A stretch of 43,415 bases of DNA from a virus: positions 1 to 43,415 of the IMG/VR virus record IMGVR_UViG_3300010300_000002, one strand, 5' to 3'. The position numbers and the translations under genes are program-made. Positions within the stretch are counted from its first letter, which is position 1. Each line of letters begins with the position of its first letter. This document shows, piece by piece, positions 124 to 43,415 of this stretch. The notes beneath the pieces are model-generated. The model saw only the letters and a list, made by a program, of their open reading frames with translations, was not told the DNA's origin and ran no database searches.

Positions 124-300
124 TGCACCGTATTTTCCAGCATTATGCCATGCCATCAAATCGTAGTAAACACTCGGCCAATATCTTCCGTTAACAGGCT
201 GCAAAAACTGACTCCCCTTGGCACCGTTAAAAGCTGACCAATGCGTCAAATATCGAAGATCAAAATCATATATATTATGACCGACTATTTTTTGAGTCAT
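1..300 (-). CDS. Circularly permuted DnaQ-like 3'-5' exonuclease, first part (runs off the window start)
   Basis: The ATG at 298-300 opens 100 codons that run off the window start and continue at 43292-42900, giving a 230-aa protein. A strong Shine-Dalgarno, AAAGGAGGG, sits 4 nt upstream, and ATGA overlaps the stop of the DnaA-like gene. Residues 5-14 read IVGHNIYDFD, the exo II motif (N9, D14). RYWPSVYYDLM follows at 39-49. YLAHD at 94-98 is the exo III Y-x3-D motif. In the phage exonuclease family this is normally the C-terminal half. Here it comes first, and motif I (DIET) follows about 109 residues after motif II. The protein probably trims or proofreads DNA ends alongside the ERF protein. 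All catalytic residues are present, so activity is plausible. The family is clear; the swapped order is discussed in the findings. Confidence 0.88.
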   Translation of the reverse strand, partial: MTQKIVGHNIYDFDLRYLTHWSAFNGAKGSQFLQPVNGRYWPSVYYDLMAWHNAGKYGASFISLSDLAVCFGLEPKEENGKHFHLWDQDKKEEYLAHDLY

Positions 301-596
301 GCTACCCTCCTTTCACAAAGGCAGGGATAAGCTGCTTCGATACCGTCCAAGATCTCTTTGGTCTGCCAGTCATCTTGCCGCCAGCCTGTAATTTTTTCTA
401 CACCGTGCAGGATAGCACCATGAGTGCGGCCAAACTTCTCAGCGATAGACTCATAAGTGTCACCTAGCAAATAAGCATAGTAATAGATTACCTGCCTAGC
501 TATAGCTACAGGCTGCCTGCGGTTTCGGCCTTTAATGTCACCTTCTTTAACACCGTAGGCATCTGCTACAATTGTCGTTAATTCTGGAATGCTCAT
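297..596 (-). CDS. Stand-alone DnaA domain IV-like DNA-binding protein
   Basis: This 99-aa protein matches only the C-terminal DNA-binding domain of the replication initiator DnaA. A helical region at residues 30-45 is followed by GRTHGAILHGVEKI at 56-69, which resembles the DnaA-box-binding signature (GRDHTTVLHAxRKI). There is no AAA+ domain. It starts with ATGA overlapping the ERF stop and ends with ATGA overlapping the exonuclease start, so the three are translationally coupled. It may recruit or compete with host DnaA at the phage origin, or act as a regulator (inference). Two perfect DnaA-box nonamers exist in the genome (1314-1322, 29421-29429), but they are far apart. Confidence 0.8.
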   Translation of the reverse strand: MSIPELTTIVADAYGVKEGDIKGRNRRQPVAIARQVIYYYAYLLGDTYESIAEKFGRTHGAILHGVEKITGWRQDDWQTKEILDGIEAAYPCLCERRVA

Positions 597-3831: not shown

Positions 3832-4010
3832 GATTCTTCCTCCACTTGTTCAGTGTTTTGTTTTTGTTGCTCCTCAACTGGGTTCTCTGGAAGAGTGCGA
3901 GAAATGTCAAAAGACATGATGGTATTATAGTTATCATTAAAGATCGGTACATTAGTATTGTACCCGTTCTCTTCTGCCCACTTTTTTAACCAGTCTTCTA
4001 CATCTGTCAT
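3828..4010 (-). CDS. Hypothetical 60-aa protein downstream of the giant virion protein
   Basis: It starts by ATGA overlap with the stop of the 2,487-aa gene. The N-terminus MTDVEDWLKKWAEENGYN looks like an amphipathic helix and the C-terminus is acidic and glutamine-rich. No family is recognised. Operon position suggests a virion-associated or assembly role, which is inference only. Confidence 0.65.
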   Translation of the reverse strand: MTDVEDWLKKWAEENGYNTNVPIFNDNYNTIMSFDISRTLPENPVEEQQKQNTEQVEEES

Positions 4011-7000
4011 TTCTTCACCTTACCAGAAGTTTCTGGAGTTGTAAAATAACTATTTTGCGACTTAGCCGATGCCCTTACTTCTTTTGATAGTAAATCCATT
4101 GACTTAGCTTCGCCCATAATTTTCTTGGCCTTGTTCTTAAATTGAGTCGGCCCAAAATATCCAGACCGCATGTGCCAAAGTATATTTTTCTTTTTAGACT
4201 TGGTTGTCTTTGGGTCATCTAATCTCTGCAATAATTTCTTTTCAATCTTTGGTGCCACTGGGTTTTTCTTGGCCTTTATTTTGTCTGTGTATTCCTTGAG
4301 ATCATCCTTGCGAGCCTTGTGCGTATCTTCATCAATAATGTTTTCTATGTGAAGAAGATCCAGTGCAGATGCCAGCCCTTCCTTGGCTTTTGTTAATTCA
4401 CCAGAAGATAATTCCTGCTTACTCAAGTTGTGCATACCATCAATTACTCGCTGCAATTGACTGGGCACCTCTGGGAGGCCATTGTATTTTCTGCCCTGTG
4501 CATTCCTAACCTTACTCTTGATAAGATTATGCACCCCTCTTTGAAAAGATGATCTAGGCCCAGTCCTCTCACCTCTGGCAAATGTTTCTGCTACCAACTG
4601 GTGGGTTTCAAACCCTTTCACCTTATGCTTTTTCATAACCTTATCTATCGCTTGGATATTTGCCTTAATCTCATCATGCAATCGATTAGGTTTATAATAT
4701 TGATCACCAATAAACATTCCAGCGTCAGTGTTAGTGAACCCTGTTATAAATGCTTCACCGTCTTGGTCCTTGAGTTTGTTCAAGTCCATAAAGAAATCAG
4801 ACTGTTGCTGCTTAGTTAGACCTTTAGTCTGAAATGATATTGTTTGATTGAATTTAGTCTTTGGATCATTCAGTTCAATGATTGTTGGCTGCCTAAAAAC
4901 ATTACCATCTGCTTGGTCTAAAGCACTGGAAATTTCCATCATCACTGACCGCACGGTCTCTGGGTTTCCTCGCATGGTCATAGATATGTTAGGAGTCACT
5001 GCTGCGGCACCATCTTCCGTATAACCTCCAAATCCTCTTTGTACATTTTGGACCACTAATTCTTCCCCGTATTGGTCTGCAATCTTTTGTACCTCGGCAC
5101 CCAGTTGATCTGCTACCGCATCTGTAATCTTCTGGACCCCCAGACTCCTGTCTTCTCCACCAAGTTGGCCGATCTTGTCCTGTACTGCCTTTGCATTTGC
5201 AGAGTCACCCCATGTATCCACTTCAAATGGAAACTTCTGGTCTGCGGTCTTGTTGTAAGTGTCAAGAATGGCCCCCAAGATGCCCTGTGCTTCCTTAGAA
5301 ATCTTTTTTGGATCTAGACCCTTTCCAGCGAGCAGCGGCTGCATTGCCTGCTTGAAATGCTGGAAGCGATCACCGAATAAAACAAGCTGCTGGTTAGACT
5401 CCAGTGGGTTTTCAAATTTAGTCAATGCCCAGAGGATCTCTTGTGCATTTCTAGCAACCAGTTTTTGTTTACCAAAGAATGAAGCGTGACCTCTTTTGTT
5501 AAGCATGTCTGCAATGAGTCCATCAACAGTCTGGTGGGCATCATACAATGGTCCTCCACCCTGCGGAGTCAGTCCACCTTCGTCATTCTTTTTGTAGTAG
5601 GACCATTTCGTTTCTTCACCAAAACCTTTCTTGCTTCTCTCTGCCCATGTGGTTTCGTTCCAGTTATTAATGTTATCAACCTGCAATGCGTTGGCCTGCT
5701 GAAAATTCATTTCCGCAGCACTGTCAATTTTCATATCCTTCTTTGCCGCTTTCCAGTTCGTGCCACTCTCGGCCATTGTTGAAATAACACGGTGCTTCGG
5801 TATGGACCAAAGAAACGGTTTAGCATTAGGAGTGTCACGGCCAGACTTAATTACATAAGCTGGGTGAGCATATTCCTTGGCTGCCATGTCCCACATGTCA
5901 ACTGTTGCCAGACCGTCAAGCAGCTTGTTCAGCTTGGCTTCTAATTGTGGTGTAAGCTTTTCCTTTGGCTTTATGAGATCCAAGGTAACTGCTGCCCTGT
6001 GCATCAATTCACTTGCGGCTTTAGCGGCACCCTCACTGGTGTCTGCTTTAGCTAAATCAATAAGCTCGGCCAATCCATTAAGGTAGAAATTCCTTACCTT
6101 ATCGCTGGCACCCTTGCGGTCTGGATCTAGCACCTCAAAATGTTTTCCTGCCTTCCAGTCCAGTGCGGTCTCTTGTGCAGCCACTTGCTGGTCAACTGGA
6201 TTAATTTTGTGCCCAGAGATCCCAGTGTAATGACCCATGATTGACCGTCCAGACTTTGTCATGTTGGCAGCTACTGCACTACGAGGTGAACCAAGGGCTA
6301 AGAATCTAAGCTGCAAATCTGCAATGTCATATTGGCTGCGGCCCTTCATTGGAACGAACTTTGCCATATCAAATGCAGTCTTACCCATGTCTGAGTAAAA
6401 GCTTGCGGTCCTCTTTGTAAACTCTGGATATTTCTTCTTATAATATTCTATTTTGTCTACGAGTTTGTTAATCAAATTGGTAACATCATCATAGGACTTA
6501 AACATGCCAGAAACTTTATTGTTAACCACTCCCATACGGGATGGTAATGCGACTGAATCTTGATATGGATTCTCTGGATAGTCTGCCATTGTAAGCTTTG
6601 CTTGAATCGCATTCTTATCACCCTCTAAGTTTTTTATTACATCTGTAGAGATAGTCTGAAATGGAGGCTTTGGCGGCATGTATGCAATACCATCAATATT
6701 GCCAGTGTCGAAAATCTTGCTAGTTACTGGGCCTTGGTCTTTAACTTGTGCAAGGAAAAGCTTATTTGTAATGATTGCCCTTTTTGCAGTAGTAAGGCCA
6801 ACTCCATCTTCTGCTGGGTAAGTTCCATCAATTCGATCATCGGCCATTAATTGCTCCTGCAATCTTTTGTCTGTAATTGGTTTATTAAATTCAGAAAACT
6901 TACCTGTTTTAAAATTGTAGTCAAAATCGTCAATTTCCTTGAATCTTTCTCTGACCATGGACAACTCTGACATTGCAAGTAAAGCAACATCTTGCTCGTA

Positions 7001-10000
7001 GTCTTTACCAAATGCTTCTACTTCTGACCTAGAAAAACCATTATCTACATTTGGCTTTAAGTGCTTTGTTGACTTATGTTTTAATGCACTGGAAAGCATA
7101 GCAGAAAGTGATCTAATTTGATTAATATAAGATAAAGCACTTGGTGCATAAACCAAGTCATTAGCGGCAGCATAATCCAGTAAGATTTGATATGCAGTGA
7201 AACCAAACCCTTTACCTTGTTCTGGCGCAGAAGATGAATCCACTTTGAGAGTACCATAACCATCTATCTCGGTCATCAATTTATCTTCGTATGCAAAAAT
7301 GTAATCTATAAGCTGATCATTTTTTAATCCGTCATCTTCTGCTCGGATTAAATAAAAACCTTCTCCATCTGTATTTTTAAATGGACGGTGTACTATTTTA
7401 CCACCAGATGCTTGCTTGACTATCCGTTCAATATTTTTTGATTTAGTGGTGGGAACCTTAAATGCCTTGCTTGTATTTGTAACTGCTTCCCAGCCCTTGG
7501 TAATACGCTTTTGCATATCTTTTTCTTTGAGGGCATTACCTAGTTTCTCTACACCCTCTTTTGCTAAAGCATCATCTAAGAAAGCAAACTTACCATCTTT
7601 ATCTTTCCCAAAAAACTGAGGCCGCCCAGCCATGGACATATTTATTTGGTCCACATCCCCTCGTTGGACTGCATCCCTTGTAGATATAGTTTCCATGCCA
7701 GACTTTGTCCTTGCCTGCACCATATCCTCTGCCTTTGGCGGCATAAGATTGTTAATGATCTTTACAGGGTCTACATGCCTTTGCCCTGTCAATTGATCAG
7801 CCTTACCTATTCTTTCAATTCTGCGGCTGCGATACACGGGCCTTGGCTGCTTGCTCTTCGCTCCAGAATCTAATGCAGCAAGCCATGGGTTTGCATCAAC
7901 ATGTGCTTTGGATGATTTACCAAACATTGCATTGATAAAATTCATCTTCTGTTTAGCAATTGCTGGATCAGCATCTAGATTAAACCAACCGTGCCTGCCC
8001 TCACCATGATTTAAATGGTATTGATGCATAGCATCCATGAACGCATCTTTTGGATTTGATGTTCCAAATAGACGGGTGACCTCGGCCTGCTGCTGACGGA
8101 AAACTTTATCAATATTTTTGTACAGAGAATCAACATTGACCGTGCGGATATTGATGTTTCCTTTTTGCGTAATCTCTATTCCGTAAGGAACCTCAAGAAC
8201 ATGCTGGACCTTTGCATTTACATATCTCCCACCACCTTTTCCAGTAGCCTTAAAATAACTAATTAACCAATCAGAACCACCCTTGGCATTTGTCCCGTTT
8301 TTTAGGGACAAATTAATTTCTTTAAACAAATCTATCTGTGCTTTGTTCCAGCCGCCTTGTGATGCAACTTCATCAATAATACTTTCATCAATGAATCTAC
8401 CTTCAAATGATATCGCTTTAGTCTTTTCATTTTCTTTCTCACGAATATGACCAGCAGGTAAACCATCTGCTTCATCCTTACGCTTGACTGCATCCAGTAA
8501 TGCTTGACTAAAATCTTGATTGTATTTCCTTTGCTGGGCTGGAGTCATGGCAGTGTCTGGGACAATGTTTCCATTCTCATCCACCCTCATTATAGTCCCT
8601 GCCCGTAGCTGCTCTATTAACTCTGGATTCTTTGCAAACTCAGCACCAGAAATATCAATTACATTTTGACCTTCATCTATTGGAAACTTTTTCTGGACCT
8701 GCTCTTTGGACAGTCCTTCTATCTCACGATTGTATTTCCTAATTAATTCTGTGACCGCAGGTATTCTTTGCATCTGCCCAAAAACACCGTTAGGTGATTG
8801 CAATGTTCCATCTGCACGAAAGGTGCCGCCCAGTCTGGCAATCATGCTCCGCAGCAAAGTTTTATTTTTAAGCATGGGAGATTCAACCAATGCTCGCATC
8901 AATGCACCAGTTGGTCCCTCATGCAAATCCCTGTATCTCCTGCTATCTGATAAGAAAAAGTCAGCACCATGTTCAGCAACAATCTCACGGGCAATTACAT
9001 CATCTGGAATTAGATCAATAACTTCTTGCCTTGGTTTGTCTGGCTCAAAGAAAAATTTTCCGTACTCGTATTTAAAGTCATCCAGTTTTTTGTTTGTCTT
9101 GTAGCCCTTCCCGTCTTCTCTCATCACAGGCTTTCCTGCATCATCAACGAGCGTAAAGATCCCTTTTTTCTCAAGCAGATGATTACCTAGCAGAAGATCT
9201 GTAAACTGTCTTGAGCCGCCCGTTTCCTCAAGGTAATGAGTTATCTCATGCCGCAGAAGTGGTTCAATTGCCCATGCAGAATCAGTGTTAACTTCTATGT
9301 ATGCGGTTCCATCTACACGGTACTGTCTTCCACCCTTACCATCTGCACCGAGTGACTTAAAATTAAACACGGTATCTTTATAAGACATCGCAGCATTTGC
9401 ATATGCAATCTGGTTGGCCTTAGACATTGAGGAAAATGATTCCTTCATGCCAGAGGGTAGTAAATTTTTGACAAAATACTGATAACTACCATGCCGCCTT
9501 TGTGATATCTCGGCAGCACTTTTCCCACCAACCATTCTAAAAGGTTTACTAGCAGTGTAGGCACCTCCTCCGAAAACAGATCCCCCACCAATGCCTCCAT
9601 ACATGGCTTCTTCTTGCTCTCCACCCCCAGCGACATATCCAAATGATCCACCAATTGCGGCACCCTTTGCCGTTTGATTTGCCAACCTTCCTGCACTCTC
9701 TACGGTCCTGCCTATCTTTGTGGCATTAAGCATATCTACCACACCCTGTGTGCCAGTAGATAACTGTCCTCTTGGTGATAAGATGCGATTAAGAAGCTTG
9801 CCTTCCCCTGCCTTAAAACTTTTTTCAGCAGTGCTTCTAACAGTGCCAAATAATGTATCTCGATCAATGATCCTGTCTGTGATCATTTCCCTGCCATTGG
9901 CCCCTAATCGCTGAAAGTAATTAAGCTCAGTGGCAGGCTCCATCAGTTCTCTACCTAGCAGTGCAGCATCCCTTCCGTACCTTGCGAGAAACGGCAAGCC

Positions 10001-11470
10001 AAGAACTGTGGCAGTAGCCATGGTAGATAGCATCTCGTCATCTGTTAAAAAGTCTGTGAGTGCATAAGTACCAGATCCTGCGGCTCCGTATTTTAAAAGC
10101 TTTGATGCCATGCCGTTTTGAAAAAGCTGAACTGCTTTCTCTTCTGGAATGCCCATCTTCATGGCAATAGTAATTGCAGTTTCTGGGGCCAAATCTTTAA
10201 GGAAAGAAATAGCATTACCCACTCCCTCTATCGTCTTGCCAGTGACAACCATTCCGCTACCTGCAACCACTCCACCAAAAGTTCTTCTACCCTTAACTGG
10301 TATACCCTTAATCTCAGATTGAATAAGTTGTTTAAGTGGATTGCCTGCTGGTAAAACCTCTGCTGCTCTAAGCATTGCTTCACGCTGGGGACGGGCCATT
10401 GTTTGAATCTTGTCTAGATTCTCCAAAATGATTCCATCTAGTGCTTTTATCTGTGCTTCAGCAGCTTCTGCCCCTTTACCAAATGCACCTTTACCTGCAT
10501 ACTCGCCAAGCTCTAAAGCTTTCTTTATAACCGCTTGTTTAAGAATTGCATCTTTGGTTTCATTAACCATTGCAATCTGCGGTCCCCTCATAATTTTATT
10601 AAAAAAAGCACTACCGCCCTTTAAGCCTGCACCAAACGGTACAAAGTTCCATGGGTCTGCAATCATAGAACCACCCGTGGCTGCTTTTCTATCTGGCTGG
10701 ACCTCTCCACTAAGAATCATTTCTTTAATTTCTGGGTCTAGTCCTGCGGTCATCCAACTTGCAGTGTTTTCTAAGTATATTGTTTGTCTATGTTTTTCTA
10801 CTTCATTTAATTTCTTCCAAAATTCATATGAGCTACGAAGATCTTCTTCCGAGTCATCATCTGAGGTAAGCATATCTATAACCCTACTACCCCCCTTTAT
10901 TAGCATTTGAGTGTTCAACTTAATATCACCCAGCATCTGGTTTTGAGTTGCCACTGCCTTTGCCCGTTTTCTTTTCTTTGCTTCCTCAAATTTCTTTTTC
11001 TGCTCACTGGTCATTCCAGATGGAGTGCCAATAACAGGGATGGAAATATAATCATTTAGCGGCAGCATCGTTATTCCAAAATTGGAAAGAAATCTTTCTG
11101 GCCAAGTCTTTGCGGCATGTCCCATATCCTCAACGATCATCTTGGCACCATCCATGATCATTTCACCAGCACCCTTTTTTGATTTTAATTCACCAGACAG
11201 TTTGAAATATTTGAATGTTTCATAATCTTGCAAGATATCATCCATAGTAATATCCCGTGCTTCTTCTTCAACTGGTGCTTCAAAAGGTTTGTTTGCAAGC
11301 AAAGGATCTATTTGCGTATAACCTCCACCCTCTAATGGTATCTTACTACCCTGCTTGGGCATAGGCAGTGCTACCATTTTATTTACATAGTTTTCCTTGG
11401 CTTCTTCTTGCTTAATTAATTCCAACTCCTCTGGAGTAGGGTCACGGGCCTCAAGTAAATCCTGCATCAC
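4007..11470 (-). CDS. Giant internal virion / polyvalent protein with HEITH metalloprotease-like motif
   Basis: At 2,487 aa this is about 17% of the genome. Phages of this type carry one very large protein that is packed in the head and ejected with the DNA (known from T7 gp16-like systems). Visible features: a charged N-terminus; glycine-rich hydrophobic segments near residues 590-645 that could insert in membrane; H741-E742-x-x-H745 followed by YLEE, a zinc-metalloprotease-like HExxH site; a GKGFGFTAYQ segment near 1415 resembling an acetyl-CoA loop; and a lysine-rich C-terminus. It overlaps its neighbours by ATGA. Ejection, membrane penetration and inhibition of host proteins are all possible. 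No lysozyme motif was recognised. Confidence 0.85.
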   Translation of the reverse strand: MMQDLLEARDPTPEELELIKQEEAKENYVNKMVALPMPKQGSKIPLEGGGYTQIDPLLANKPFEAPVEEEARDITMDDILQDYETFKYFKLSGELKSKKGAGEMIMDGAKMIVEDMGHAAKTWPERFLSNFGITMLPLNDYISIPVIGTPSGMTSEQKKKFEEAKKRKRAKAVATQNQMLGDIKLNTQMLIKGGSRVIDMLTSDDDSEEDLRSSYEFWKKLNEVEKHRQTIYLENTASWMTAGLDPEIKEMILSGEVQPDRKAATGGSMIADPWNFVPFGAGLKGGSAFFNKIMRGPQIAMVNETKDAILKQAVIKKALELGEYAGKGAFGKGAEAAEAQIKALDGIILENLDKIQTMARPQREAMLRAAEVLPAGNPLKQLIQSEIKGIPVKGRRTFGGVVAGSGMVVTGKTIEGVGNAISFLKDLAPETAITIAMKMGIPEEKAVQLFQNGMASKLLKYGAAGSGTYALTDFLTDDEMLSTMATATVLGLPFLARYGRDAALLGRELMEPATELNYFQRLGANGREMITDRIIDRDTLFGTVRSTAEKSFKAGEGKLLNRILSPRGQLSTGTQGVVDMLNATKIGRTVESAGRLANQTAKGAAIGGSFGYVAGGGEQEEAMYGGIGGGSVFGGGAYTASKPFRMVGGKSAAEISQRRHGSYQYFVKNLLPSGMKESFSSMSKANQIAYANAAMSYKDTVFNFKSLGADGKGGRQYRVDGTAYIEVNTDSAWAIEPLLRHEITHYLEETGGSRQFTDLLLGNHLLEKKGIFTLVDDAGKPVMREDGKGYKTNKKLDDFKYEYGKFFFEPDKPRQEVIDLIPDDVIAREIVAEHGADFFLSDSRRYRDLHEGPTGALMRALVESPMLKNKTLLRSMIARLGGTFRADGTLQSPNGVFGQMQRIPAVTELIRKYNREIEGLSKEQVQKKFPIDEGQNVIDISGAEFAKNPELIEQLRAGTIMRVDENGNIVPDTAMTPAQQRKYNQDFSQALLDAVKRKDEADGLPAGHIREKENEKTKAISFEGRFIDESIIDEVASQGGWNKAQIDLFKEINLSLKNGTNAKGGSDWLISYFKATGKGGGRYVNAKVQHVLEVPYGIEITQKGNINIRTVNVDSLYKNIDKVFRQQQAEVTRLFGTSNPKDAFMDAMHQYHLNHGEGRHGWFNLDADPAIAKQKMNFINAMFGKSSKAHVDANPWLAALDSGAKSKQPRPVYRSRRIERIGKADQLTGQRHVDPVKIINNLMPPKAEDMVQARTKSGMETISTRDAVQRGDVDQINMSMAGRPQFFGKDKDGKFAFLDDALAKEGVEKLGNALKEKDMQKRITKGWEAVTNTSKAFKVPTTKSKNIERIVKQASGGKIVHRPFKNTDGEGFYLIRAEDDGLKNDQLIDYIFAYEDKLMTEIDGYGTLKVDSSSAPEQGKGFGFTAYQILLDYAAANDLVYAPSALSYINQIRSLSAMLSSALKHKSTKHLKPNVDNGFSRSEVEAFGKDYEQDVALLAMSELSMVRERFKEIDDFDYNFKTGKFSEFNKPITDKRLQEQLMADDRIDGTYPAEDGVGLTTAKRAIITNKLFLAQVKDQGPVTSKIFDTGNIDGIAYMPPKPPFQTISTDVIKNLEGDKNAIQAKLTMADYPENPYQDSVALPSRMGVVNNKVSGMFKSYDDVTNLINKLVDKIEYYKKKYPEFTKRTASFYSDMGKTAFDMAKFVPMKGRSQYDIADLQLRFLALGSPRSAVAANMTKSGRSIMGHYTGISGHKINPVDQQVAAQETALDWKAGKHFEVLDPDRKGASDKVRNFYLNGLAELIDLAKADTSEGAAKAASELMHRAAVTLDLIKPKEKLTPQLEAKLNKLLDGLATVDMWDMAAKEYAHPAYVIKSGRDTPNAKPFLWSIPKHRVISTMAESGTNWKAAKKDMKIDSAAEMNFQQANALQVDNINNWNETTWAERSKKGFGEETKWSYYKKNDEGGLTPQGGGPLYDAHQTVDGLIADMLNKRGHASFFGKQKLVARNAQEILWALTKFENPLESNQQLVLFGDRFQHFKQAMQPLLAGKGLDPKKISKEAQGILGAILDTYNKTADQKFPFEVDTWGDSANAKAVQDKIGQLGGEDRSLGVQKITDAVADQLGAEVQKIADQYGEELVVQNVQRGFGGYTEDGAAAVTPNISMTMRGNPETVRSVMMEISSALDQADGNVFRQPTIIELNDPKTKFNQTISFQTKGLTKQQQSDFFMDLNKLKDQDGEAFITGFTNTDAGMFIGDQYYKPNRLHDEIKANIQAIDKVMKKHKVKGFETHQLVAETFARGERTGPRSSFQRGVHNLIKSKVRNAQGRKYNGLPEVPSQLQRVIDGMHNLSKQELSSGELTKAKEGLASALDLLHIENIIDEDTHKARKDDLKEYTDKIKAKKNPVAPKIEKKLLQRLDDPKTTKSKKKNILWHMRSGYFGPTQFKNKAKKIMGEAKSMDLLSKEVRASAKSQNSYFTTPETSGKVKK

Positions 11471-13077
11471 TTTTTGGGATCTATTATTTTTTGTTCACCA
11501 TTTATCGAAACAACCCTCTGGCCAGTTGGTAGTGTTCTCAATAATTTCACTACCTTTCTTTTGCCTTCGTGCATGATACTTATGTTTCCATCATCGTCAG
11601 AATCTTTAGTAGATTTACTTGAATCTTCTTTGCCGTAAGTATCTAGAAAAGCTTTAGGGATATTGTTGTATTCTTCACTGAAAAATCTTTCCCTTATTTG
11701 TTTTTTAAAGCTTCCATAATATGGGTCATTTGGATTTACATATGAATTTGAAATTTCATTTATTGCAGATTCAGTGCCAGCAATTTTTATTTTAAATGCA
11801 GTGTCTCTAAGTATTTCCGCTGCATCTCGTAAGTCTTTTCTGCTGGAATCTGGAAGCTTACCAGTCGCAGAAACACTTATTGCTTTTTCAATCTTTTTCA
11901 TTACTGACTGGGCACCACTAAATCTTTGAATGTCTGGCTCGGTCAATATACCTACAGGCTCAAGTAATCTTGCCATTTTTACTACGGCAGCAACATCACC
12001 AACATCTTTTTTAGCATCTATTAAGGTCATTAATTGTTCCACATTACGGATAACCATATCTGCCTCATTGATCTTATTGTCCTTCTCGTAGCTTCTTTTT
12101 TCCGACAATATTTCTTTTGGAGCAACAATGGTATACTGCTGCTTCATTTTTTCCATTTGCTCAGAACTTAACTGAACTTTGTTATCTTTAGCCCAGTCCT
12201 GTATCCCTTGCATCGCTTCACCTTCGTCAAAAATTATGCGAGTGTCTGGTCTAAAATTTGGTGCCATGTCAGCAGCCTTTTCTTCATCCCGTAAGTTTTT
12301 TACTCGCAAAGCCTGCTCAACAGTGTCCATGCTTTGAAGCTGCATTTTATCTTTCCTCTCTTGCAATTGTCTCATTGCTCCTGCCTTGAGCATTGCTTGG
12401 TAAGGTGAATTTACTGGACCATATGCAGCCGCAAATTTATCTGGGTCCAATTCATTCATTGGAATTGTTTTTGGAATAGCAGATTTTTGCTTTATCAATC
12501 TGCTCTTTTTGGTATCTAAATCATTAAATTTATCTCTATACTCATCCGCAGTAATCTCTCCATCTCTTAGCATTTCAGCATACATGCTTATCTCAGTTCT
12601 GATTGATGATATTCCTCCATCAAGTTCTTCTACTCTTGGATTCTTTACTGCCCCAGACATTCTATTGAAATGATCCAGCTTGGCATTAATTTCTTGTTTC
12701 TGTTGCTCAAATAAATAGTTTTGCTGCTGCTGCTGTTGAGCATTTCGCTCCTCCTGCATTTTTAATTGCATTGATTTCTGGAACTCTTGGAAACCACCAT
12801 GCGATTTAATTAAACCCTTTGCCATTTTAATGGTCTCTTTAGGGTCATCTGTGTTTATTTGCACACCAGCTTGCCCAAGCATTTGTTTACCTAAATCAGT
12901 TTTTATGTAGTCTGCAATTTGTTGCTCAAAACCTTTTTCTTGAAAGTACAAACTACCTAGTTGACCGAACGCACGAAAGGCTTCCCCTATACCCCTTCCA
13001 TATGCTTCTGCCCCTCTAGTGATTGGCGAGAAGTCAGGTTGCTGCACTCTGATTTGCTGGAAATATGGGGAAGCCAT
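11467..13077 (-). CDS. Putative internal virion protein, glutamine-rich
   Basis: The 536-aa protein begins MASPYFQQIRVQQPDF, a common opening for proteins placed between the tail genes and the giant ejection protein. Residues 100-125 are very rich in glutamine (a run of six Q), followed by predicted helices and coiled-coil stretches. It is mostly helical with no enzyme motif. It overlaps the giant gene by ATGA, which suggests the two are made together and probably co-packaged. The function is inferred from position and composition. Confidence 0.7.
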   Translation of the reverse strand: MASPYFQQIRVQQPDFSPITRGAEAYGRGIGEAFRAFGQLGSLYFQEKGFEQQIADYIKTDLGKQMLGQAGVQINTDDPKETIKMAKGLIKSHGGFQEFQKSMQLKMQEERNAQQQQQQNYLFEQQKQEINAKLDHFNRMSGAVKNPRVEELDGGISSIRTEISMYAEMLRDGEITADEYRDKFNDLDTKKSRLIKQKSAIPKTIPMNELDPDKFAAAYGPVNSPYQAMLKAGAMRQLQERKDKMQLQSMDTVEQALRVKNLRDEEKAADMAPNFRPDTRIIFDEGEAMQGIQDWAKDNKVQLSSEQMEKMKQQYTIVAPKEILSEKRSYEKDNKINEADMVIRNVEQLMTLIDAKKDVGDVAAVVKMARLLEPVGILTEPDIQRFSGAQSVMKKIEKAISVSATGKLPDSSRKDLRDAAEILRDTAFKIKIAGTESAINEISNSYVNPNDPYYGSFKKQIRERFFSEEYNNIPKAFLDTYGKEDSSKSTKDSDDDGNISIMHEGKRKVVKLLRTLPTGQRVVSINGEQKIIDPKK

Positions 13078-22659: not shown

Positions 22660-24738
22660 TTATAATTCTTCTGCTCTTGAATTACTTACTTCTGTAAGTG
22701 ACTCCCCTGAAATACTTGCCCCTAATGAAACTGATTCTTCTACAGGTGCTTCCTCGGCTACTGGTTCTTCTGAAGCCTCTTCCACGGCAGGTTCTTCTGC
22801 CTTGTCAGGTTCGGGGCTGCCACCTTCTAGCGCTACAATTCTAGACTTCAAGTCTTCGATTATTTGTTGTTGCTCTTGGATGGCCTTTACTAGAGTAAGA
22901 GTAATTTTAGATTCAGTTGGAATCGTTTTTAAATCTTCTTCCCCTTCACCAATGCAATGCTCCCAGCCTTTCATTTTTTGCCTAGATACCAACTCTGGAT
23001 AAACTTCTTCAAGCTCGTCAGCAATAAGACCAATATCAACAGAAGTCATTGGTTCTGTTGAATTCCAATCCCAACTTCTCAATTTTAAAGCTTTAATTGA
23101 ATCAATGCCCTTGATTGAGGTATCATTGATATTTTTTTTGATCCTGCGATCAGATCCGCTAAAAAATGCAACGGTTGTATTACTAGTATTTTGTATACCA
23201 CCTATAATAGTGGAACCGTTACCATTATAAAACTCTATCCATTTATTATTTCCAGCTGTACCTGAGTTAGCCATGCCTGCTTGAATTTTTATTCCCTTAT
23301 AGCCGGGATGACCTGGATCTGTATAGGTTGAAATAAATTGAGCGACATAAGTAGTATCTCTACCACGAACATCTAAATTCGCATCAGCACTAGGATTCGG
23401 AGTACCAATCCCTACCTTGCCTGCGGAGGTGATGCGCATTGCTTCATTACCTTGTGTAAATATAGCAAGCCCAACTTTATCAGTATAGTCAGTTGCTCCA
23501 GTCACATCAGTTCTGCCGTCAATAAATGCAGAATTGGAAATACTAGAAGATCCATTTTGAAATTTCAAGCCTGCCAATCCCTGATCGGCTGTTGTAATTG
23601 TGCTTCCTGAGTTTAGCTCCAACTTAGCACTAGGACTCGTAGTACCAATACCTACCTCGCCTGCCTGCGTGATAACCATTCTTGCCTGATTAGCATTATC
23701 GTCAGCAAAGAAACCTAATTTTCCACCACCTCCAATATTCCAACCACCAGCAGATGTGTGAATGCCCCACTTTCCTCCGTCCGTGGAACTATTTTGCAAT
23801 ACAAGCTGCCCAGTTGCCGAGCTTGCGACCGAAGATTGACCATCAACTATGTTCAACCTAGCACTAGGACTCGTAGTACCAATTCCGACATGGCCATTGT
23901 GAGTTATCGCCAACGCATCAACAGCGGTACTATTATCATAAGATCTAAATAATAAACCCCCATCATTACTTGATTCGTCACCGTTTGCATCAACTCCCGA
24001 AGTATGGACTATTTCAGCCCTTGTGCCTTGATTTTGAGTCGTTCCTCCTGAGAAAGTTATGTCACCTTTGATATGCAACTCTGATTCAGGACTCGTAGTG
24101 CCAATACCGACATTGCCTCCGTTAAAATATGAATCACCGCTAGTGTCTAGGACTACTTTCTGGTCACCCTCGTCCATCATGCTGAGGTAAGCCGTGTCTA
24201 GCTCTGTACTGCTTCGCCTTCCTAAGGAAAATAAATTATAATCATCACTTCCGATGAACATTCTTTTATTATCACCTTTAATGTGCAATGCCTCGTCAGG
24301 ACTCGTAGTTCCAATACCTACCTTGCCTGAAGGGTCGATTTGCATTACTACTCTTTCACCATCACTACCTTTTTGCTTGATTGAAAAAGTCGATTGCGGA
24401 TCTGCTAATACATTTGTATCTCGCGTGACGGTAATGCTTCTATATCCCATTTCAAGATTTTGACCCGCATCGTCCGCACCTCTGTATATCTTCAATCTGT
24501 CATCAGTCGATCCAGCGGAAGTCGGTGACCCAAGAGTTAAATCGTGACTAGGACTCGTAGTTCCAATACCTACCTTACCCATCACTGAAGCTTCCGTGTC
24601 ACTAAGATACAATGCACTACCCGTGCCCTCCCCATCAAAGACTCTAGACAAATCTGAAGTAACTCCAGTGTTGCCATTGTTCATGTGCAACAAGTCTTTA
24701 TATGTTTCCTTTATTTCCTGTCCTGTTAAATCACTCAT
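22660..24738 (-). CDS. Tail fibre with C-terminal S74 intramolecular chaperone
   Basis: The 692-aa fibre carries six copies of a VGIGTxxP shaft repeat (five VGIGTTSP, one VGIGTPNP), then a peptidase S74 self-cleaving chaperone domain from about residue 527: SGSDRRIKKN with S529 and K534 as the likely catalytic dyad, then WDWNSTEPMTSVDIGLIADEL. S74 domains trimerise the fibre and then cut themselves off. A coiled coil (EQQQIIEDLKSRIVALEG) and an unusually long acidic tail (EEP/VEE repeats) follow. Its start overlaps the upstream stop. It likely recognises the host surface. Confidence 0.88.
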   Translation of the reverse strand: MSDLTGQEIKETYKDLLHMNNGNTGVTSDLSRVFDGEGTGSALYLSDTEASVMGKVGIGTTSPSHDLTLGSPTSAGSTDDRLKIYRGADDAGQNLEMGYRSITVTRDTNVLADPQSTFSIKQKGSDGERVVMQIDPSGKVGIGTTSPDEALHIKGDNKRMFIGSDDYNLFSLGRRSSTELDTAYLSMMDEGDQKVVLDTSGDSYFNGGNVGIGTTSPESELHIKGDITFSGGTTQNQGTRAEIVHTSGVDANGDESSNDGGLLFRSYDNSTAVDALAITHNGHVGIGTTSPSARLNIVDGQSSVASSATGQLVLQNSSTDGGKWGIHTSAGGWNIGGGGKLGFFADDNANQARMVITQAGEVGIGTTSPSAKLELNSGSTITTADQGLAGLKFQNGSSSISNSAFIDGRTDVTGATDYTDKVGLAIFTQGNEAMRITSAGKVGIGTPNPSADANLDVRGRDTTYVAQFISTYTDPGHPGYKGIKIQAGMANSGTAGNNKWIEFYNGNGSTIIGGIQNTSNTTVAFFSGSDRRIKKNINDTSIKGIDSIKALKLRSWDWNSTEPMTSVDIGLIADELEEVYPELVSRQKMKGWEHCIGEGEEDLKTIPTESKITLTLVKAIQEQQQIIEDLKSRIVALEGGSPEPDKAEEPAVEEASEEPVAEEAPVEESVSLGASISGESLTEVSNSRAEEL

Positions 24739-28859: not shown

Positions 28860-29099
28860 TCAAACAAACTTGTACCAAATTTTTCTAGTCAATTGCTTTT
28901 GTGTAGGATTCCATGCTGAACCCTTGTGGACCTTTATTTTACCTTCTTTTATTAATTCCTTAATAATTTTGTGGGCCCTAGTTATTCCTATATTTGATTT
29001 TTCTCTAAAATCTTCTGATGTAAACCAGTCATCCCCTTCTGGAATATTTTCATTTATTCTTTCAACCTGTTGCAATTCTTTGGCCCAGTTTATTGCCAT
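28860..29099 (-). CDS. Small winged-helix DNA-binding protein
   Basis: The 79-aa protein has a predicted helix-turn-helix in DWFTSEDFREKSNIGITRAHKIIKELIKEGKIKVHKG, typical of winged-helix regulators. It overlaps the phosphoesterase stop by 10 bp and precedes the scaffold gene by 130 bp that contain an inverted repeat, so it may regulate the head genes. The target is unknown. Confidence 0.7.
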   Translation of the reverse strand: MAINWAKELQQVERINENIPEGDDWFTSEDFREKSNIGITRAHKIIKELIKEGKIKVHKGSAWNPTQKQLTRKIWYKFV

Positions 29100-29806
29100 A
29101 TATATTCTCCATCAAATTTCTTGGCTACATAGACCTGCCAACTTTTGTTTGAGTAATAACCGTAGACCCAGCCTGTTTCATGGGCCAAGCGATTTACTTT
29201 TGCACGGTTCCATCCCATTTCCGTTTGCGTAAGGCATCCTGCCGAGAATGCTGCTCCACCCTTGTGCCTTGGGACCGTAAACATTTGAATTGAATGAATG
29301 TGCCCATGAACACAGCATCCACCCTGTTTGGCAAATGTTAGTGCATGTTGCTTGCAAGCGGAAACGGCACCGTGAAAGTAGCCATGAACAAATGTCATTA
29401 TTCCTAACTCAAGAACACCCTTATCCACATTGTAAGGCAATATCTTACACTTCAACTTTTTGCATCTGCTAGTAATATCCTTAATGCCAGAACGCGCGGT
29501 ATCCCGTACAATTCCAACAGAATGCTTTTCTGCCGTTTGCCATAACCTGTCATCATGATTGCCAAGCAGGAAATAGTGAGGTTCCCAATTTCCGAGAAAC
29601 TCCATGCCTGCTTCAACATCGGCCTCCATGCTGGCATTTTTCTCTGCTGGATCTGCACCCCTCATTAGTGGAGAAAAATCAAATAGGTCACCTCCGAATA
29701 TTCGGACATCTGGCTTGAACTCCTCTGTAAATTTATAGAGGGCCGAAACCGCATCTGGATCTTGCATGTCACCATGCAGATCACTCGCAAAAACAAAAGA
29801 CTTCAC
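29090..29806 (-). CDS. Calcineurin-like metallophosphoesterase
   Basis: The 238-aa protein carries the metallophosphoesterase motifs in order: D9-x-H11 (ASDLHGD), G38GD40, G82NHD85, H141 (HGYFHG) and H167-x-H169 (VHGHIHS). These bind two metal ions and hydrolyse phosphomono- or diesters. The GTG start overlaps the upstream TAG by one base. Its position among head genes is odd for a nucleic-acid enzyme; it could act in nucleotide or RNA turnover or as a packaged enzyme. The substrate cannot be inferred. Confidence 0.85.
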   Translation of the reverse strand: MKSFVFASDLHGDMQDPDAVSALYKFTEEFKPDVRIFGGDLFDFSPLMRGADPAEKNASMEADVEAGMEFLGNWEPHYFLLGNHDDRLWQTAEKHSVGIVRDTARSGIKDITSRCKKLKCKILPYNVDKGVLELGIMTFVHGYFHGAVSACKQHALTFAKQGGCCVHGHIHSIQMFTVPRHKGGAAFSAGCLTQTEMGWNRAKVNRLAHETGWVYGYYSNKSWQVYVAKKFDGEYIWQ

Positions 29807-29987: not shown

Positions 29988-30189
29988 CGTCATCCTCCTC
30001 AAAATCTATATGACTTTCAAAATCTATCACATATTCCTCAAGCCACTCTTTAGTGTCCTCACGAACAATTTCTCCGATTCTACTTTCGTCAATATCTGAT
30101 TCCTCGACCCAGTATTCCAAGAAATTACGGTGAGCATTTTTTACCTGCTGCTCTGGAGTCTCTTTTACCTTTTTCTTTTTCTTAGGCAT
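29974..30189 (-). CDS. Hypothetical small protein with basic start and acidic end
   Basis: I prefer the internal start MPKKKKKVKETPEQQ (about 71 aa), which overlaps the 3' end of the methyltransferase gene; a longer frame begins at 30264 inside that gene. The N-terminus is lysine-rich, the middle helical (NAHRNFLEYWVEESDIDESRIGEI), and the end strongly acidic (DFEEDDDAED). It is co-translated with the tiny basic proteins that follow. Role unknown. Confidence 0.6.
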   Translation of the reverse strand: MPKKKKKVKETPEQQVKNAHRNFLEYWVEESDIDESRIGEIVREDTKEWLEEYVIDFESHIDFEEDDDAED

Positions 30190-30955
30190 TTTTTTCAAAA
30201 TGAAATTCAGAAACTTTGATAGGTGCATACGGGCAATTCCCGTGAAACTCATGCAGCTTATCATTTACTAAATCCTGCCACTTTGAATAATCAAGCAGCA
30301 CATTCATGTTATCTAATAAATAAGTTGGCTTTAATCCTACTGCACGGGCAGCAGCTAAATGATATTCTACTGAGTAACACATATAGTGCCAGTTCTCTTG
30401 CAGTGATCTTATCTGCATTGAATACTCAGGGTCTGGATCATCTATTTGGCACATATCGCTTACTATTGCCTTGCCACCGTTTTTAAGAACTCTACGAACC
30501 TCAGAGTAAGTATTAATCAACGGACGATACCCTATGGACTGATCGAAAATTGCTAAATCGAATGTATCACTCTCAAATGGCATATTGTCGTAGCTACCCT
30601 CGGATATCTCTACATTTTTTGGCAAATCTTTACTTGCTTCTTCAATTTGCACATCTGATATGTTCAAGCCCACAAAACTAGCATTTGGTCTTTCTCCAGC
30701 CATGTGCTTCAAAGAAGTGCCTATTCCGCAACCTGCATCGAGAATATTTTTTCTGCTAGGATTTATTTTTCTTCTAGCAAACTGAAGATCTAGATGTTCA
30801 TCAAAATCATTTGATAACAACCCAGCTTGAAAAACAGAGTAGCCAGCATTCACATAAATGCCACTTACTTTATTCCAATAATCTTTTAAATAATTTGTGC
30901 TCTTACATGCAGATTCATAATGTGCATTAAGTAAATTAAATTTATCTATATTCAT
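30182..30955 (-). CDS. SAM-dependent methyltransferase (class I)
   Basis: The 257-aa protein has motif I LDAGCGIGT at residues 72-80, a second-strand motif FVGLNIS at 94-100, and FDLAIFDQS at 132-140. The GLNISDVQIEEA arrangement is typical of small-molecule and sterol/UbiE-type enzymes rather than DNA methyltransferases, and no DPPY or PCQ motif is present. It overlaps the neighbouring 88-aa gene by ATGA. Location between portal and scaffold is unusual. The substrate could be a lipid, a virion protein or a metabolite. Confidence 0.85.
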   Translation of the reverse strand: MNIDKFNLLNAHYESACKSTNYLKDYWNKVSGIYVNAGYSVFQAGLLSNDFDEHLDLQFARRKINPSRKNILDAGCGIGTSLKHMAGERPNASFVGLNISDVQIEEASKDLPKNVEISEGSYDNMPFESDTFDLAIFDQSIGYRPLINTYSEVRRVLKNGGKAIVSDMCQIDDPDPEYSMQIRSLQENWHYMCYSVEYHLAAARAVGLKPTYLLDNMNVLLDYSKWQDLVNDKLHEFHGNCPYAPIKVSEFHFEKNA

Positions 30956-38879: not shown

Positions 38880-39067
38880 TCTTTTCCTTTCTTTAATTTA
38901 ATATCCCATTTCTCTGTGTCCTTGGAAAAACACTCATCTACGCATACTGGATGAAATCCTAATCCTACAAGCAGACCCTTAAATCCACTTATTGCACTAG
39001 GCAGGTCATCAGACATGCTATGCTCCCATGATACATCTTGATCGAGTAGTTCTATTGTTATCTTCAT
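38858..39067 (-). CDS. Hypothetical 69-aa protein
   Basis: A small acidic protein with an alternating hydrophobic pattern (MKITIELLDQDVSW) and a GLLVGLGFHPVCVDECF segment. It overlaps the arginine-rich protein gene by ATGA. No family is recognised. Confidence 0.6.
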   Translation of the reverse strand: MKITIELLDQDVSWEHSMSDDLPSAISGFKGLLVGLGFHPVCVDECFSKDTEKWDIKLKKGKEWTTTKD

Positions 39068-39786
39068 TGTTTTTTTATTGGGTTGTGGGATATTCCCTTT
39101 AATGATCGTGCAGGTGGAATGAATCCTCTCTTGTAAGGTTCTGGAATATCGAATGGCATACTCTTACCTTTCGGCACCCAAATCGTGTACCTGTATCCAT
39201 CTGCACCTATAAAATCTTTAGGATAATTATTCTCTCGGAACTTACGGTCCTCTTCCTTTTGCCACTCAAGATGAGCCAATAACTCCGCTTCTTTCCTTTT
39301 CTTCAATTCTAGATCAAGCATTCTCCTAAAACGGGCCGCTTCTTTCGCTGCCATTGATCTCCTTCTTCGTCCCTTCCTTGCCCTACTCCTTGCCCTTCTC
39401 CTTGCCCTTCTTCGCTTCTCATCCTGTCTCTGTATCCGCTGCCGCTTCTCGCCCCTACTCTCAGTCCTGTCTCGGATCTCATCCATTTTCTTCCTTATTG
39501 CAACCTGTGCATCCGTAAGCTTACCGTCAGAAAAATTAGATTTTTCAGATAAAGACGGTTCTGTAATTACATCCCTACCCTTATCAATACTGCCCACAAT
39601 AGTACGACATGACATAAGAACTTTATCTATCGAAACCCGTGCTGCCGTACCAGTAACCTTAAACCTCTTGCCAATGTCTGTGTAGGTACGGTCATCATAG
39701 TATCTAAGCTTTAGTAATTCTACCTCACATGGGGGTAGGTGATCGAATATGCATTCAAGGTAATCTTTCTGTTCTAATTCATTCAT
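39064..39786 (-). CDS. Sigma-region-4-like HTH protein with arginine-rich centre
   Basis: The 240-aa protein starts with a sigma-factor region 4-like HTH (VELLKLRYYDDRTYTDIGKR, extending to about residue 56). Residues 112-144 are extremely arginine-rich (EKRRRARRRARSRARKGRR). The last 90 residues are helical and then proline-rich (PFDIPEPYKRGFIPP). It may redirect host RNA polymerase or act as a DNA/RNA-binding regulator; no region 2 is present, so it is not a complete sigma factor. Confidence 0.65.
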   Translation of the reverse strand: MNELEQKDYLECIFDHLPPCEVELLKLRYYDDRTYTDIGKRFKVTGTAARVSIDKVLMSCRTIVGSIDKGRDVITEPSLSEKSNFSDGKLTDAQVAIRKKMDEIRDRTESRGEKRQRIQRQDEKRRRARRRARSRARKGRRRRSMAAKEAARFRRMLDLELKKRKEAELLAHLEWQKEEDRKFRENNYPKDFIGADGYRYTIWVPKGKSMPFDIPEPYKRGFIPPARSLKGISHNPIKKQ

Positions 39787-40928: not shown

Positions 40929-41091
40929 GACTATTTGGGTGCCATGGGCAAGGTCCATGATTTGGTTCAACGCAATGGGGTTGGCCGCATTTATTGGTTG
41001 AGCAACTACTTACTGCATATCCCCAGATTAATACGATTAGAATAATCAATAGAATGAATCCCCAATCACCATGTAAATCTCTCCATCTCAT
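40918..41091 (-). CDS. Candidate small lipoprotein with cysteine-rich tail (57 aa)
   Basis: The ATG at 41089-41091 has GGAGG upstream and overlaps the helicase-loader stop by ATGA. A hydrophobic segment at residues 11-27 (GFILLIILIVLIWGYAV) is followed by VSSC at about 27-30, resembling a lipobox. The remaining sequence is rich in Cys, His and Pro (CSTNKCGQPHCVEPNHGPC). Small phage lipoproteins often block superinfection or act in lysis; an ordinary membrane protein is possible. Confidence 0.6.
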   Translation of the reverse strand: MRWRDLHGDWGFILLIILIVLIWGYAVSSCSTNKCGQPHCVEPNHGPCPWHPNSHGR

Positions 41092-41921
41092 TCCTTATCC
41101 TCCTCTATTTCATCTTGAGTGACCTCTTGATTGGTAACATAGAGATCACATGATTCCCGTAATCGATTAAGAAGTGCTTCTCCTCTTTGTGGATCCCTGA
41201 ATTGTTGCACTGCCATGGATCTCTTCACTTGAGTGGTGATCAGAATTGGCTTTTTACGGGCCATTCTGCCCTCTATTATCTCAAATAATCCAGACTGTAT
41301 GGTCTCGGTCAGTTTCTCGGCAAAGAGGTCATCTATGGCCAGTACAGGGATATTGATCTGCTGATCTCTCCAATCGGTAAAATTATATCCTTTCTTAGCA
41401 TCGACTAATTCTGAATGAAATTGGCCAGCCTCAAATAATTTGAATGGAATATTACATTTGTACACATGCTGGAGAATCAATGAAAGTGTTCTTGTCTTAC
41501 CTGTTCTGCTTGATCCGAGAATATAAACACCTCTACCATTTACTGATTGCCAGTCCTGTAATTTCTTAGACTCAAACTTTACCTTCTTTTTAGTCTTTGG
41601 ATCTTCGCGTTCATAGGTGTATCCATACCGCCAGATATTTTGTGCCTGCTTTGGTAGAAGCTTGAAATCAGTCTCCAGATAAATCTTAGAGATATAATTC
41701 TCAATCATTGGAAGCTTTGGTTTTGCCTCCTCTTCTGCATTAGCTGCATCGCAGCAAGCATCACATACCACTATCCTTTTATTGTTTCCGAAAGCAGCTA
41801 ATACACTGCTCTTGTAGGGTACATCAGTTTCACATTCCCTGCATGGTACGACAATATCATCGTAATCCACATCTGGCACATTTGCCACTGGGACCACATT
41901 GCCAATCTTTTGTAATGTCAT
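41088..41921 (-). CDS. DnaC/IstB-like AAA+ helicase loader with zinc motif
   Basis: The 277-aa protein has two cysteine pairs (C27/C30 and C53/C56, plus C57) resembling a zinc ribbon, then an AAA+ module: Walker A GSSRTGKT 136-143, Walker B VLAIDD 193-198, sensor-like ITTQ 228-231, and R253/R255 near the end. Such proteins load the host replicative helicase at phage origins. It lies after the RHH replication gene with an ATGA overlap. Confidence 0.8.
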   Translation of the reverse strand: MTLQKIGNVVPVANVPDVDYDDIVVPCRECETDVPYKSSVLAAFGNNKRIVVCDACCDAANAEEEAKPKLPMIENYISKIYLETDFKLLPKQAQNIWRYGYTYEREDPKTKKKVKFESKKLQDWQSVNGRGVYILGSSRTGKTRTLSLILQHVYKCNIPFKLFEAGQFHSELVDAKKGYNFTDWRDQQINIPVLAIDDLFAEKLTETIQSGLFEIIEGRMARKKPILITTQVKRSMAVQQFRDPQRGEALLNRLRESCDLYVTNQEVTQDEIEEDKE

Positions 41922-42478
41922 AAATCATCCTCCGAGTAAGTTGTGTTTGTTTGTTCGTCTTGGAAATCGTTATCGAAAACGAATCCTTTCCATCCACTGG
42001 AAATAGATCTCTCCCATCGCTCGACTAATTGGGCTTCCGTTTCATTCGCCAGCACCTTATCAATATATCTCTTTTGGAACTTCTCTTGGGCCTTCTTAAT
42101 CCCTCGATACTTCTTCCACTCCTGCCATGCCTGCTGAGTTTTCTCAGACAAAAAAATAATACTATTATTATTATTTACTTTATATATATCTACATATGTA
42201 GACATGAGTAAAGGCGCGCGCGAGGGAGTGGATGGTTTGGCCCTACTGGTGGGGCCATGTGTGGGGCCAGATTGAGTTTTCTCTAATTGTTCCATTTTGG
42301 CCCCATCTGTGGGGCCATGTATGGGGCCAAATTTAGAATGAAGGTGATGCTGGATTAAGGTGAATTTCACCGCATCATTTAAAGACAATTCATACTCAGC
42401 AGCGAAGCTGCGAACATGGTCTTCCAGCACCTTCGGCAAACGAAGATTTAGTTTAAACTGTTTGCCTGCTTCAGACAT
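41918..42478 (-). CDS. RHH replication-type protein with repeats in its gene
   Basis: The 186-aa protein begins with an Arc/CopG-like ribbon-helix-helix (KLNLRLPKVLEDHVRSFAAE, LSLNDAVKFTL). A linker carries two peptide repeats, GPIHGPTDGAK (51-61) and GPTHGPTSRAK (71-81), encoded by DNA repeats exactly 60 bp apart, then a polar run. The C-terminal half is helical (TQQAWQEWKKYRGIKKAQEKF). Position before the helicase loader, with an AT-rich tract nearby, suggests a lambda O-like replication initiator. Confidence 0.65.
   Translation of the reverse strand: MSEAGKQFKLNLRLPKVLEDHVRSFAAEYELSLNDAVKFTLIQHHLHSKFGPIHGPTDGAKMEQLEKTQSGPTHGPTSRAKPSTPSRAPLLMSTYVDIYKVNNNNSIIFLSEKTQQAWQEWKKYRGIKKAQEKFQKRYIDKVLANETEAQLVERWERSISSGWKGFVFDNDFQDEQTNTTYSEDDL
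42147..42205. other. AT-rich tract inside the replication gene
   Basis: About 59 bases of nearly pure A/T, including ATTATTATTATT and TATATATATC tracts. It lies 30-90 bases from the GC-rich direct repeats (42237-42333). A GC-rich repeat cluster next to an AT-rich tract inside a replication gene recalls lambda-type origins, where such AT-rich DNA is unwound first. Confidence 0.5.
42237..42333. repeat. Two 37-bp direct repeats with TGGGGCCA units
   Basis: Units at 42237-42273 and 42297-42333 differ at six positions and are offset by exactly 60 bp. Each contains two TGGGGCCA octamers (partly palindromic GGCC) 12 bp apart, plus an opposing TTGGCCC. They sit in the linker-coding part of the RHH protein. 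They are candidate initiator-binding iterons. Confidence 0.75.
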
Positions 42479-42885
42479 CAGAATGGTACATCTTCATCCA
42501 AATCTGGATCAGCAAATTGCTCTGCGATCTCATCTGGCACCTCATCCACTCCAGCCGCAACCGTTGCCCGTGACGCTTTTGGATAGAACCGTTTGATGGT
42601 ATCATATCCTTGCTGGTTTTTCCCTATGTTAATCTTCACCTCTTCGCCAATCAGTGAATCGAAATGGGATGTGTTAATTGCATCCGCAGACGGTGCCTCC
42701 AGCCCAGCAGCCTTGAAAATATCTTCTACTCGCCAATGTGCCCTTGGAGTAAGAAAAACAGAATCATATAATGACTCACCGTTCTCCAGTGCATAGAGAA
42801 TCTTTACATAAAGATTCCCAGACTTTGTGACAAATTCTTGTCCCTCTTGTGATGTGGTATAAATACCCTTTATAGTTGCATTCAT
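42478..42885 (-). CDS. SSB-like single-strand DNA-binding protein
   Basis: Chosen start MNATIKGIYTT (42883-42885); a longer frame from 42969 would overlap the exonuclease. The protein has OB-like beta strands (MNATIKGIYTT, VKILYALENGESLYDSVFL) and ends with DLDEDVPF, which resembles the acidic DDDIPF tip of bacterial SSB that recruits repair and replication enzymes. Other phage OB-fold proteins are alternatives. It lies directly after the permuted exonuclease and before the RHH replication gene. Confidence 0.65.
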   Translation of the reverse strand: MNATIKGIYTTSQEGQEFVTKSGNLYVKILYALENGESLYDSVFLTPRAHWRVEDIFKAAGLEAPSADAINTSHFDSLIGEEVKINIGKNQQGYDTIKRFYPKASRATVAAGVDEVPDEIAEQFADPDLDEDVPF

Positions 42886-42899
42886 ATTAGTTGTATTAA

Positions 42900-43415
42900 T
42901 TAGTATTTGTTTTTTGCTTTCAGTTCGTTGTGCAAAACTTCGCTGCATTTCTCCCAGAACTTGTTGCATAGTGCTACAGGCTCATCGAAATCCATTTCTA
43001 CCCTGCCATCTGAGTAGCGATATCCTATAGCTATAGGGTCACTATGCGTTGCATGTAGAGCAGCCTTATCTAAGATATTAGGCCAGTATTCTGCTTCCGC
43101 TTTATCGATGTAATTATCGATTACCTCCTGCTTCTTATAAGTTTTGGGTACGGCAACATTGTCTCTGTCAAATGGTGGGACAATTTCTTGCAATTCTTCC
43201 AGTGTTTTGGGTGCCGTTTCGATATCGAAAACCATCCATTCATCTGCAATATTAAAAGCTTCATTGACCTGCTTGAAGATCCCATCTGTTAAATATAAAT
43301 CATGTGCCAGATATTCTTCTTTCTTATCTTGGTCCCAAAGATGAAAGTGCTTTCCATTTTCCTCTTTCGGCTCCAGCCCAAAACATACTGCTAAATCTGA
43401 AAGACTTATAAACGA
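42900..43415 (-). CDS. Circularly permuted DnaQ-like 3'-5' exonuclease, second part (continues from window end)
   Basis: This is the continuation of the frame that opens at 300 and crosses the contig join, ending with TAA at 42900-42902. Residue 120 is the M of WMVFDIETAP, with exo I D123-x-E125, the sequence that normally begins this family. The N-terminal family layout continues (TLEELQEIVPPFDRDN, ILDKAALHATHSDPIAIGY, CNKFWEKCSEV) and the protein ends where motif II would usually follow. The right contig end alone already shows motif III (YLAHD) encoded upstream of motif I. No strong ribosome binding site precedes the internal ATG at 43235. Confidence 0.88.
   Translation of the reverse strand, partial: SFISLSDLAVCFGLEPKEENGKHFHLWDQDKKEEYLAHDLYLTDGIFKQVNEAFNIADEWMVFDIETAPKTLEELQEIVPPFDRDNVAVPKTYKKQEVIDNYIDKAEAEYWPNILDKAALHATHSDPIAIGYRYSDGRVEMDFDEPVALCNKFWEKCSEVLHNELKAKNKY
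43293..43415. repeat. Terminal direct repeat, right copy
   Basis: Exact copy of 1-123. It encodes part of the exonuclease (from SFISL to HDLY), so the swapped gene order is already visible at this end, where motif III precedes DIETAP. The repeat length could be an assembler overlap or a real terminal redundancy. Confidence 0.97.

Follow-up and report, generated by a model that had tools for sequence, protein, structure and literature searches.

The window analysed here is the whole 43,415-base stretch of a virus record, whose positions 1-123 are identical to a 123-bp terminal repeat at 43293-43415, so that the contig closes as a circle of 43,292 bp. The circle-closing overlap lies inside an exonuclease gene on the minus strand, which reads from 300 to 1 and then from 43292 to 42900 as one uninterrupted 230-codon frame with a TAA stop. 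The product (MTQKIVGHNIYDFD...YLAHDLYLTDG...WMVFDIETAP...KNKY) carries the motifs of a DnaQ-like exonuclease in an unusual order. The 5' part of the coding sequence (1-300) specifies residues 1-100, with exo motif II, the D-x-M segment and motif III, and the 3' part (42900-43292) specifies residues 101-230 and the stop, including the end of the motif III helix, the motif I strand, b2, b3 and aA. Motif II (GHNIYDFD, 259-282, residues 7-14, catalytic D14) stands directly behind the start codon and is followed by motif III (YLAHD, 7-21, residues 94-98, with Y94 and D98). Motif I (FDIETAP, 43209-43229, residues 122-128, with D123 and E125) lies downstream of motif III. The start region (297-312, minus strand) consists of AAAGGAGGG, a 4-nt spacer and an ATGA that overlaps the stop of the upstream gene. 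Upstream of the start the frame continues for only four codons until it meets an in-frame stop, and hence no motif I can lie ahead of it.

The neighbouring genes, all on the minus strand, form a conserved block headed by an integrase of the tyrosine recombinase type (1769-2905), followed by a PDDEXK/Holliday-resolvase-like nuclease (1237-1569), an ERF single-strand annealing protein (593-1240), a stand-alone DnaA domain IV (Bac_DnaA_C, E 1.5e-15; 297-596), the exonuclease and an SSB-like gene (42478-42885). The latter encodes an acidic tail (...DEDVPF) and, having no Pfam match, was assigned from this tail and its context. The block, with the DnaA domain IV gene as a variable component, occurs in the window, L265 (G001), L266 (G003) and L276; it extends to a DnaC-like helicase loader (41088-41921 in the window) in all of these except L266, where the available stretch stops after the SSB-like gene. 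Part of the series ERF, exonuclease, SSB-like and DnaC-like was recovered in L275. No second exonuclease of the same kind is encoded in the window. In L057/L134, the normal-order relative that is nearest by path, the exonuclease gene directly follows and overlaps ERF, and the permuted gene thus occupies the same slot. The small DnaA domain IV protein found between ERF and the exonuclease (99 aa, a DNA-binding domain) is 94% identical in L053 and absent from this position in L264/L265, L275 and L276; in L055 and L056, small proteins resembling it are encoded close to the normal-order gene.

A preliminary description of the window, made from the sequence alone, had proposed the 230-codon frame across the contig ends, the positions of the three motifs, a start with AAAGGAGGG four bases upstream and ATGA coupling, a TAA just before an SSB-like gene (here at 42885 to 42478), and the retention of D123, E125, D14 and D98. 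All these claims held, given the identical window ends and the single open frame. One refinement is needed, as the stretch to which the swap had been assigned (42900-43415) shows by itself only motif III followed by motif I; motif II followed by motif III is found at 300-1, and the whole II-III-I order exists in the window only across the circular join. Since the order in the window depends on circularisation, independent contigs decide whether it is real.

The search of metagenomes for the same half order, also proposed in that description, recovered six such contigs from other samples, in each of which the II-III-I order, as opposed to the I-II-III order of normal DnaQ/PolB-type exonucleases, runs uninterrupted within a single contig, and the gene begins and ends at the same points as in the window, with the same neighbours. 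A 10.9-kb contig (L003) encodes the 230-aa frame without a break, at 93% identity to the window protein. Members from two further samples (L052 and L053) are 62-64% identical to it, that of L264 (232 aa; same record as L166) 41-42%, and those of L275 and L276 39% each, pairwise identities among the seven proteins ranging from 38 to 97%. The D, E, D, Y and D residues align without any variation across the seven proteins and the 39 normal-order relatives checked, motif I D-x-E being aligned with motif I of the relatives. The ATGA start coupled to the preceding gene, just before motif II, is likewise common to all seven. In the six other members the frame is open for just 4-17 codons upstream, so that motif I cannot precede the start in these either. 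The linear order I-II-III, which is usual although it is not part of the catalytic definition, is absent from all seven; it was found in every full-domain locus among about 120 other homologous loci fetched, as had been claimed for the known phage family. Both segments of the domain are therefore complete in all seven members, in swapped order and on a single chain, which constitutes a natural circular permutation.

These members were found in part by pattern scans of viral sequences. A pattern requiring a ribosome-binding site and an ATG shortly before GHNxxxFD matched at least 119 stretches, most of which are normal-order enzymes where the ATG is fortuitous, and led to L166/L264, which is truly permuted. 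A direct pattern (GHN..FD, then Y...D, then DxE; glycine codons GGA and GGG lay outside the scan) matched 10 viral stretches, among them L275 and L276 as new permuted members and three already known; L272, L277 and L279-L281 proved to be normal-order proteins and were rejected. A search of genome contigs with a profile of the permuted alignment returned zero relatives, and neither of two genome-contig matches to the order-specific pattern is a permuted exonuclease. Searches of cultured phages with tblastn yielded normal-order relatives only, at half coverage, with no permuted member, and a plasmid search with the L275 protein gave no relatives. L182 contains an exonuclease-like frame (12162-12217) in which GHNSKQFD lies only 23 codons past a stop, which could reflect an enzyme that is split or frameshifted; a search of this record with the window protein gave no match.

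The permutation was also evident from profile matching. A profile built solely from five normal-order relatives matched the native window protein in two blocks standing in swapped order, profile positions 119-232 at residues 4-111 (56.2 bits) and profile positions 5-77 at residues 121-197 (27.8 bits). After rotation of the protein, a check that the preliminary description had suggested, the two blocks merged into one end-to-end match of 94.9 bits. When the point of rotation was moved along the chain five residues at a time, the highest-scoring single match was that at residue 115 (95.9 bits vs 56.2 for the native chain). The E-values of this test derive from a tiny search space and the bit scores are the meaningful figure. 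In PHROGs, residues 5-88 fall in the later portion of phrog_403 (positions 144-215 of 321), annotated as DNA polymerase exonuclease subunit, and the profile of the permuted alignment identifies the exonuclease region in a family-B DNA polymerase (5mdn, 226-347, E 3.3e-6). No Pfam family reaches threshold on the native window protein; the L264 protein scores 14.5 bits against PF10108 and 14.3 bits against PF03104, below the cut-offs of 24 and 23.

A structure prediction, likewise suggested beforehand, was obtained with AlphaFold2 for the L003 protein in its native order. The alignment rows were the other permuted proteins and separate halves of normal-order enzymes (19 halves with motifs II-III and 8 with motif I, the catalytic columns being correctly placed); four rows taken from GenBank phage records were left out, and alignments mixing many separate halves were dropped because motif III was misplaced in them. 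The model is a single domain (mean pLDDT 92.5, pTM 0.87) with the elements E(II)-H-E-H(III)-E(I)-H-E-E-H. In detail, a strand (II), a helix, a strand and helices precede a long helix (88-113, III), after which come a strand (118-128, I), a helix (155-177), two strands and a last helix (205-228). The model of the normal-order sister L057 (pLDDT 94.1) reads E(I)-H-E-E-H-E(II)-H-E-H(III) in short form and, more fully, strand (I), two helices, two strands, helix, strand (II), helix, strands, helices and helix (III), so that the models predict for the permuted protein the L057 element list in rotated order.

Foldseek, which aligns in sequence order, returned no PDB match at E<=1e-3 for the permuted model, the best hit being the exonuclease of T4 polymerase (E 0.29 over 132 columns), whereas L057 gave 122 matches at this threshold, with family-B polymerases at the top (about 240 columns). 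A viral structure library gave only partial matches to the permuted model. It is inferred from these predictions that the chain folds into a normal RNase H-like domain, and, from the confident single-domain model and homology, that the catalytic residues meet in space; no geometry was measured. Standard profile and fold searches would miss such proteins, because the native chain has no Pfam match and no significant PDB match.

Phylogenetic analysis placed the permuted proteins in one clade (support 100/94) next to normal-order enzymes. In trees of the separate halves each half groups with the same normal-order set, the support for the permuted clade being only 79 in the motif II-III tree. The permuted order is old and, among the sequences found, confined to a single clade. 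It is inferred to be derived, since family-B polymerases and every other relative seen have the normal order. Monophyly of the seven members, together with conserved start coupling and synteny, shows that the swapped order was fixed by descent rather than by an assembly or annotation error. The circular permutation proposed in the preliminary description is accordingly supported by profile rotation, monophyletic homologues, predicted rotated elements and the contrast in fold searches.

Pairwise dN/dS over the whole gene (NG86) was 0.11-0.20 in the four closest members, the only ones tested, and indicates that purifying selection maintains the permuted gene. Between the window and L053 (L266), DNA identity is mostly 57-80% in the exonuclease gene and mostly 80-100% in its flanks, the low island spanning window positions 42879-303 across the join; at the protein level the exonuclease is 62% identical and its neighbours 85-96%. 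The gene probably represents an allele exchanged among phages that otherwise resemble each other. An Erf is among the Rad52-like phage proteins for which homology-tolerant recombination has been documented (PMC3945230). In the gene that follows the SSB-like gene (41918-42478), DNA identity with L053 falls abruptly to about 50%, a second exchange boundary.

The closest known proteins are phage exonucleases of phrog_403, PF10108 (DNA_pol_B_exo2) and PF03104 (DNA_pol_B_exo1), such as the 'exonuclease DnaQ-like protein' of Rhizobium phage RHph_Y25, gp67 of Pseudomonas phage KLEP17-4 and the IMG/VR sister L057. They are homologous to the permuted protein in both halves, share its DEDDy residues and are similar in length (about 225-240 aa), and they too often adjoin ERF or another recombination gene. 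All of them, however, run I-II-III, whereas the permuted protein runs II-III-I and starts right before motif II. In the exonuclease domain of family-B polymerases (5mdn; T4 polymerase 1noy) the permuted profile matches the motif II-III part and the normal-order sister model matches the whole domain; this domain is linear in order and embedded in a polymerase, while the permuted protein is small and stands alone.

The protein is therefore very likely a naturally circularly permuted PolB-type/DnaQ-like (DEDDy) 3'-5' exonuclease, its activity being inferred in the absence of data. The usual chain runs b1 (motif I), b2, b3, aA, b4 (motif II), aB, b5 and a last helix (motif III). In the permuted protein this chain is opened immediately ahead of b4, and a link of about 4-5 residues connects the former C-terminus to b1, giving b4-aB-b5-aC(III)-b1(I)-b2-b3-aA. 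Two metals would be bound by D123, E125, D14 and D98, with Y94 assisting, and the enzyme would strip 3' nucleotides from DNA. That it retains a working 3'-5' exonuclease activity appears likely, again by inference and without activity data. With the ERF annealing protein and SSB it may act in phage recombination-dependent replication or end processing; this role in a recombination and replication module rests on gene order only, and we favour it by a narrow margin. As to its origin, the exonuclease gene may have been tandemly duplicated in the slot after ERF, the C-terminus of the first copy fused to the N-terminus of the second, and the outer halves lost. This route of duplication and trimming is inferred and has not been shown.

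An alternative route, which remains possible, is fission into two genes followed by refusion in the other order. Both routes lead to the same product and neither is backed by a duplicated or split intermediate among the sequences found, yet the single post-ERF slot shared by normal-order and permuted phages fits duplication in place slightly better. A second alternative accepts the permutation and has the protein assemble into a domain-swapped dimer or a larger complex, with the active site completed by halves from different chains. The new termini and the short linker from motif III to motif I could favour swapping, but the confident and compact monomer model (pLDDT and pTM as given above) makes this unlikely. 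Less plausible still is the view that the gene is a remnant, decaying or repurposed, that has no nuclease activity: biochemical data are lacking, and between the window and L053 the exonuclease has diverged more than its neighbours, but the catalytic residues are invariant across members down to 38% identity, the dN/dS values are low and the start coupling is conserved. Finally, an assembly artefact, in which the 123-bp overlap wrongly joins the ends of a normal-order gene, could account for an order seen in the window only across the join but is all but excluded by the six contigs from other samples in which this order is internal and the gene boundaries and neighbours are the same.

Circular permutations that rearrange the active-site motifs of an enzyme are rare. 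Precedents of the same kind of event, with catalytic residues kept, are the YRG/cpRAS GTPases with rotated motifs (PMC2430557) and permuted DNA methyltransferases (PMC10853773), the latter also noted in jumbo phages (PMC7824862), although both have unrelated folds and serve as precedent only. The preliminary description had held that permuted DnaQ-type exonucleases are not commonly described; no earlier description of a permuted DnaQ/DEDD exonuclease was found in open-access PMC text, a search that leaves most subscription journals uncovered, and a survey of the RNase H-like superfamily (PMC3985635, 152 families) contains no word beginning with 'permut'. Priority is thus probable and not certain. 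The permuted topology is probably new, the kind of enzyme being known, and its bearers form a small, old family in uncultured phages. On a bolder reading, which we also consider likely, no natural circular permutation had been described before in the DEDD/RNase H-like exonuclease superfamily, and the permuted proteins are an old phage family of single origin that replaced the normal-order enzyme in the ERF slot and possibly gained termini for docking to ERF or SSB.

The PolB-type exonuclease domain can thus accommodate new termini placed at the motif II strand, and a conserved permuted exonuclease offers a natural test of folding and of the importance of termini for partner proteins. Direct searches for swapped motif orders may reveal more permuted enzymes.

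Other features of the window include a 2,487-aa protein (4007-11470) that carries a large polyvalent protein domain (LPD37, E 5.5e-15) and matches no PHROG, and five related 59-nt direct repeats (23380-24596) within the tail-fibre gene. Metallophosphoesterase-like (29090-29806) and SAM-methyltransferase-like (30182-30955) genes lie among the head genes, and a possible regulator of 240 aa (39064-39786) contains a sigma-70 region 4 domain.
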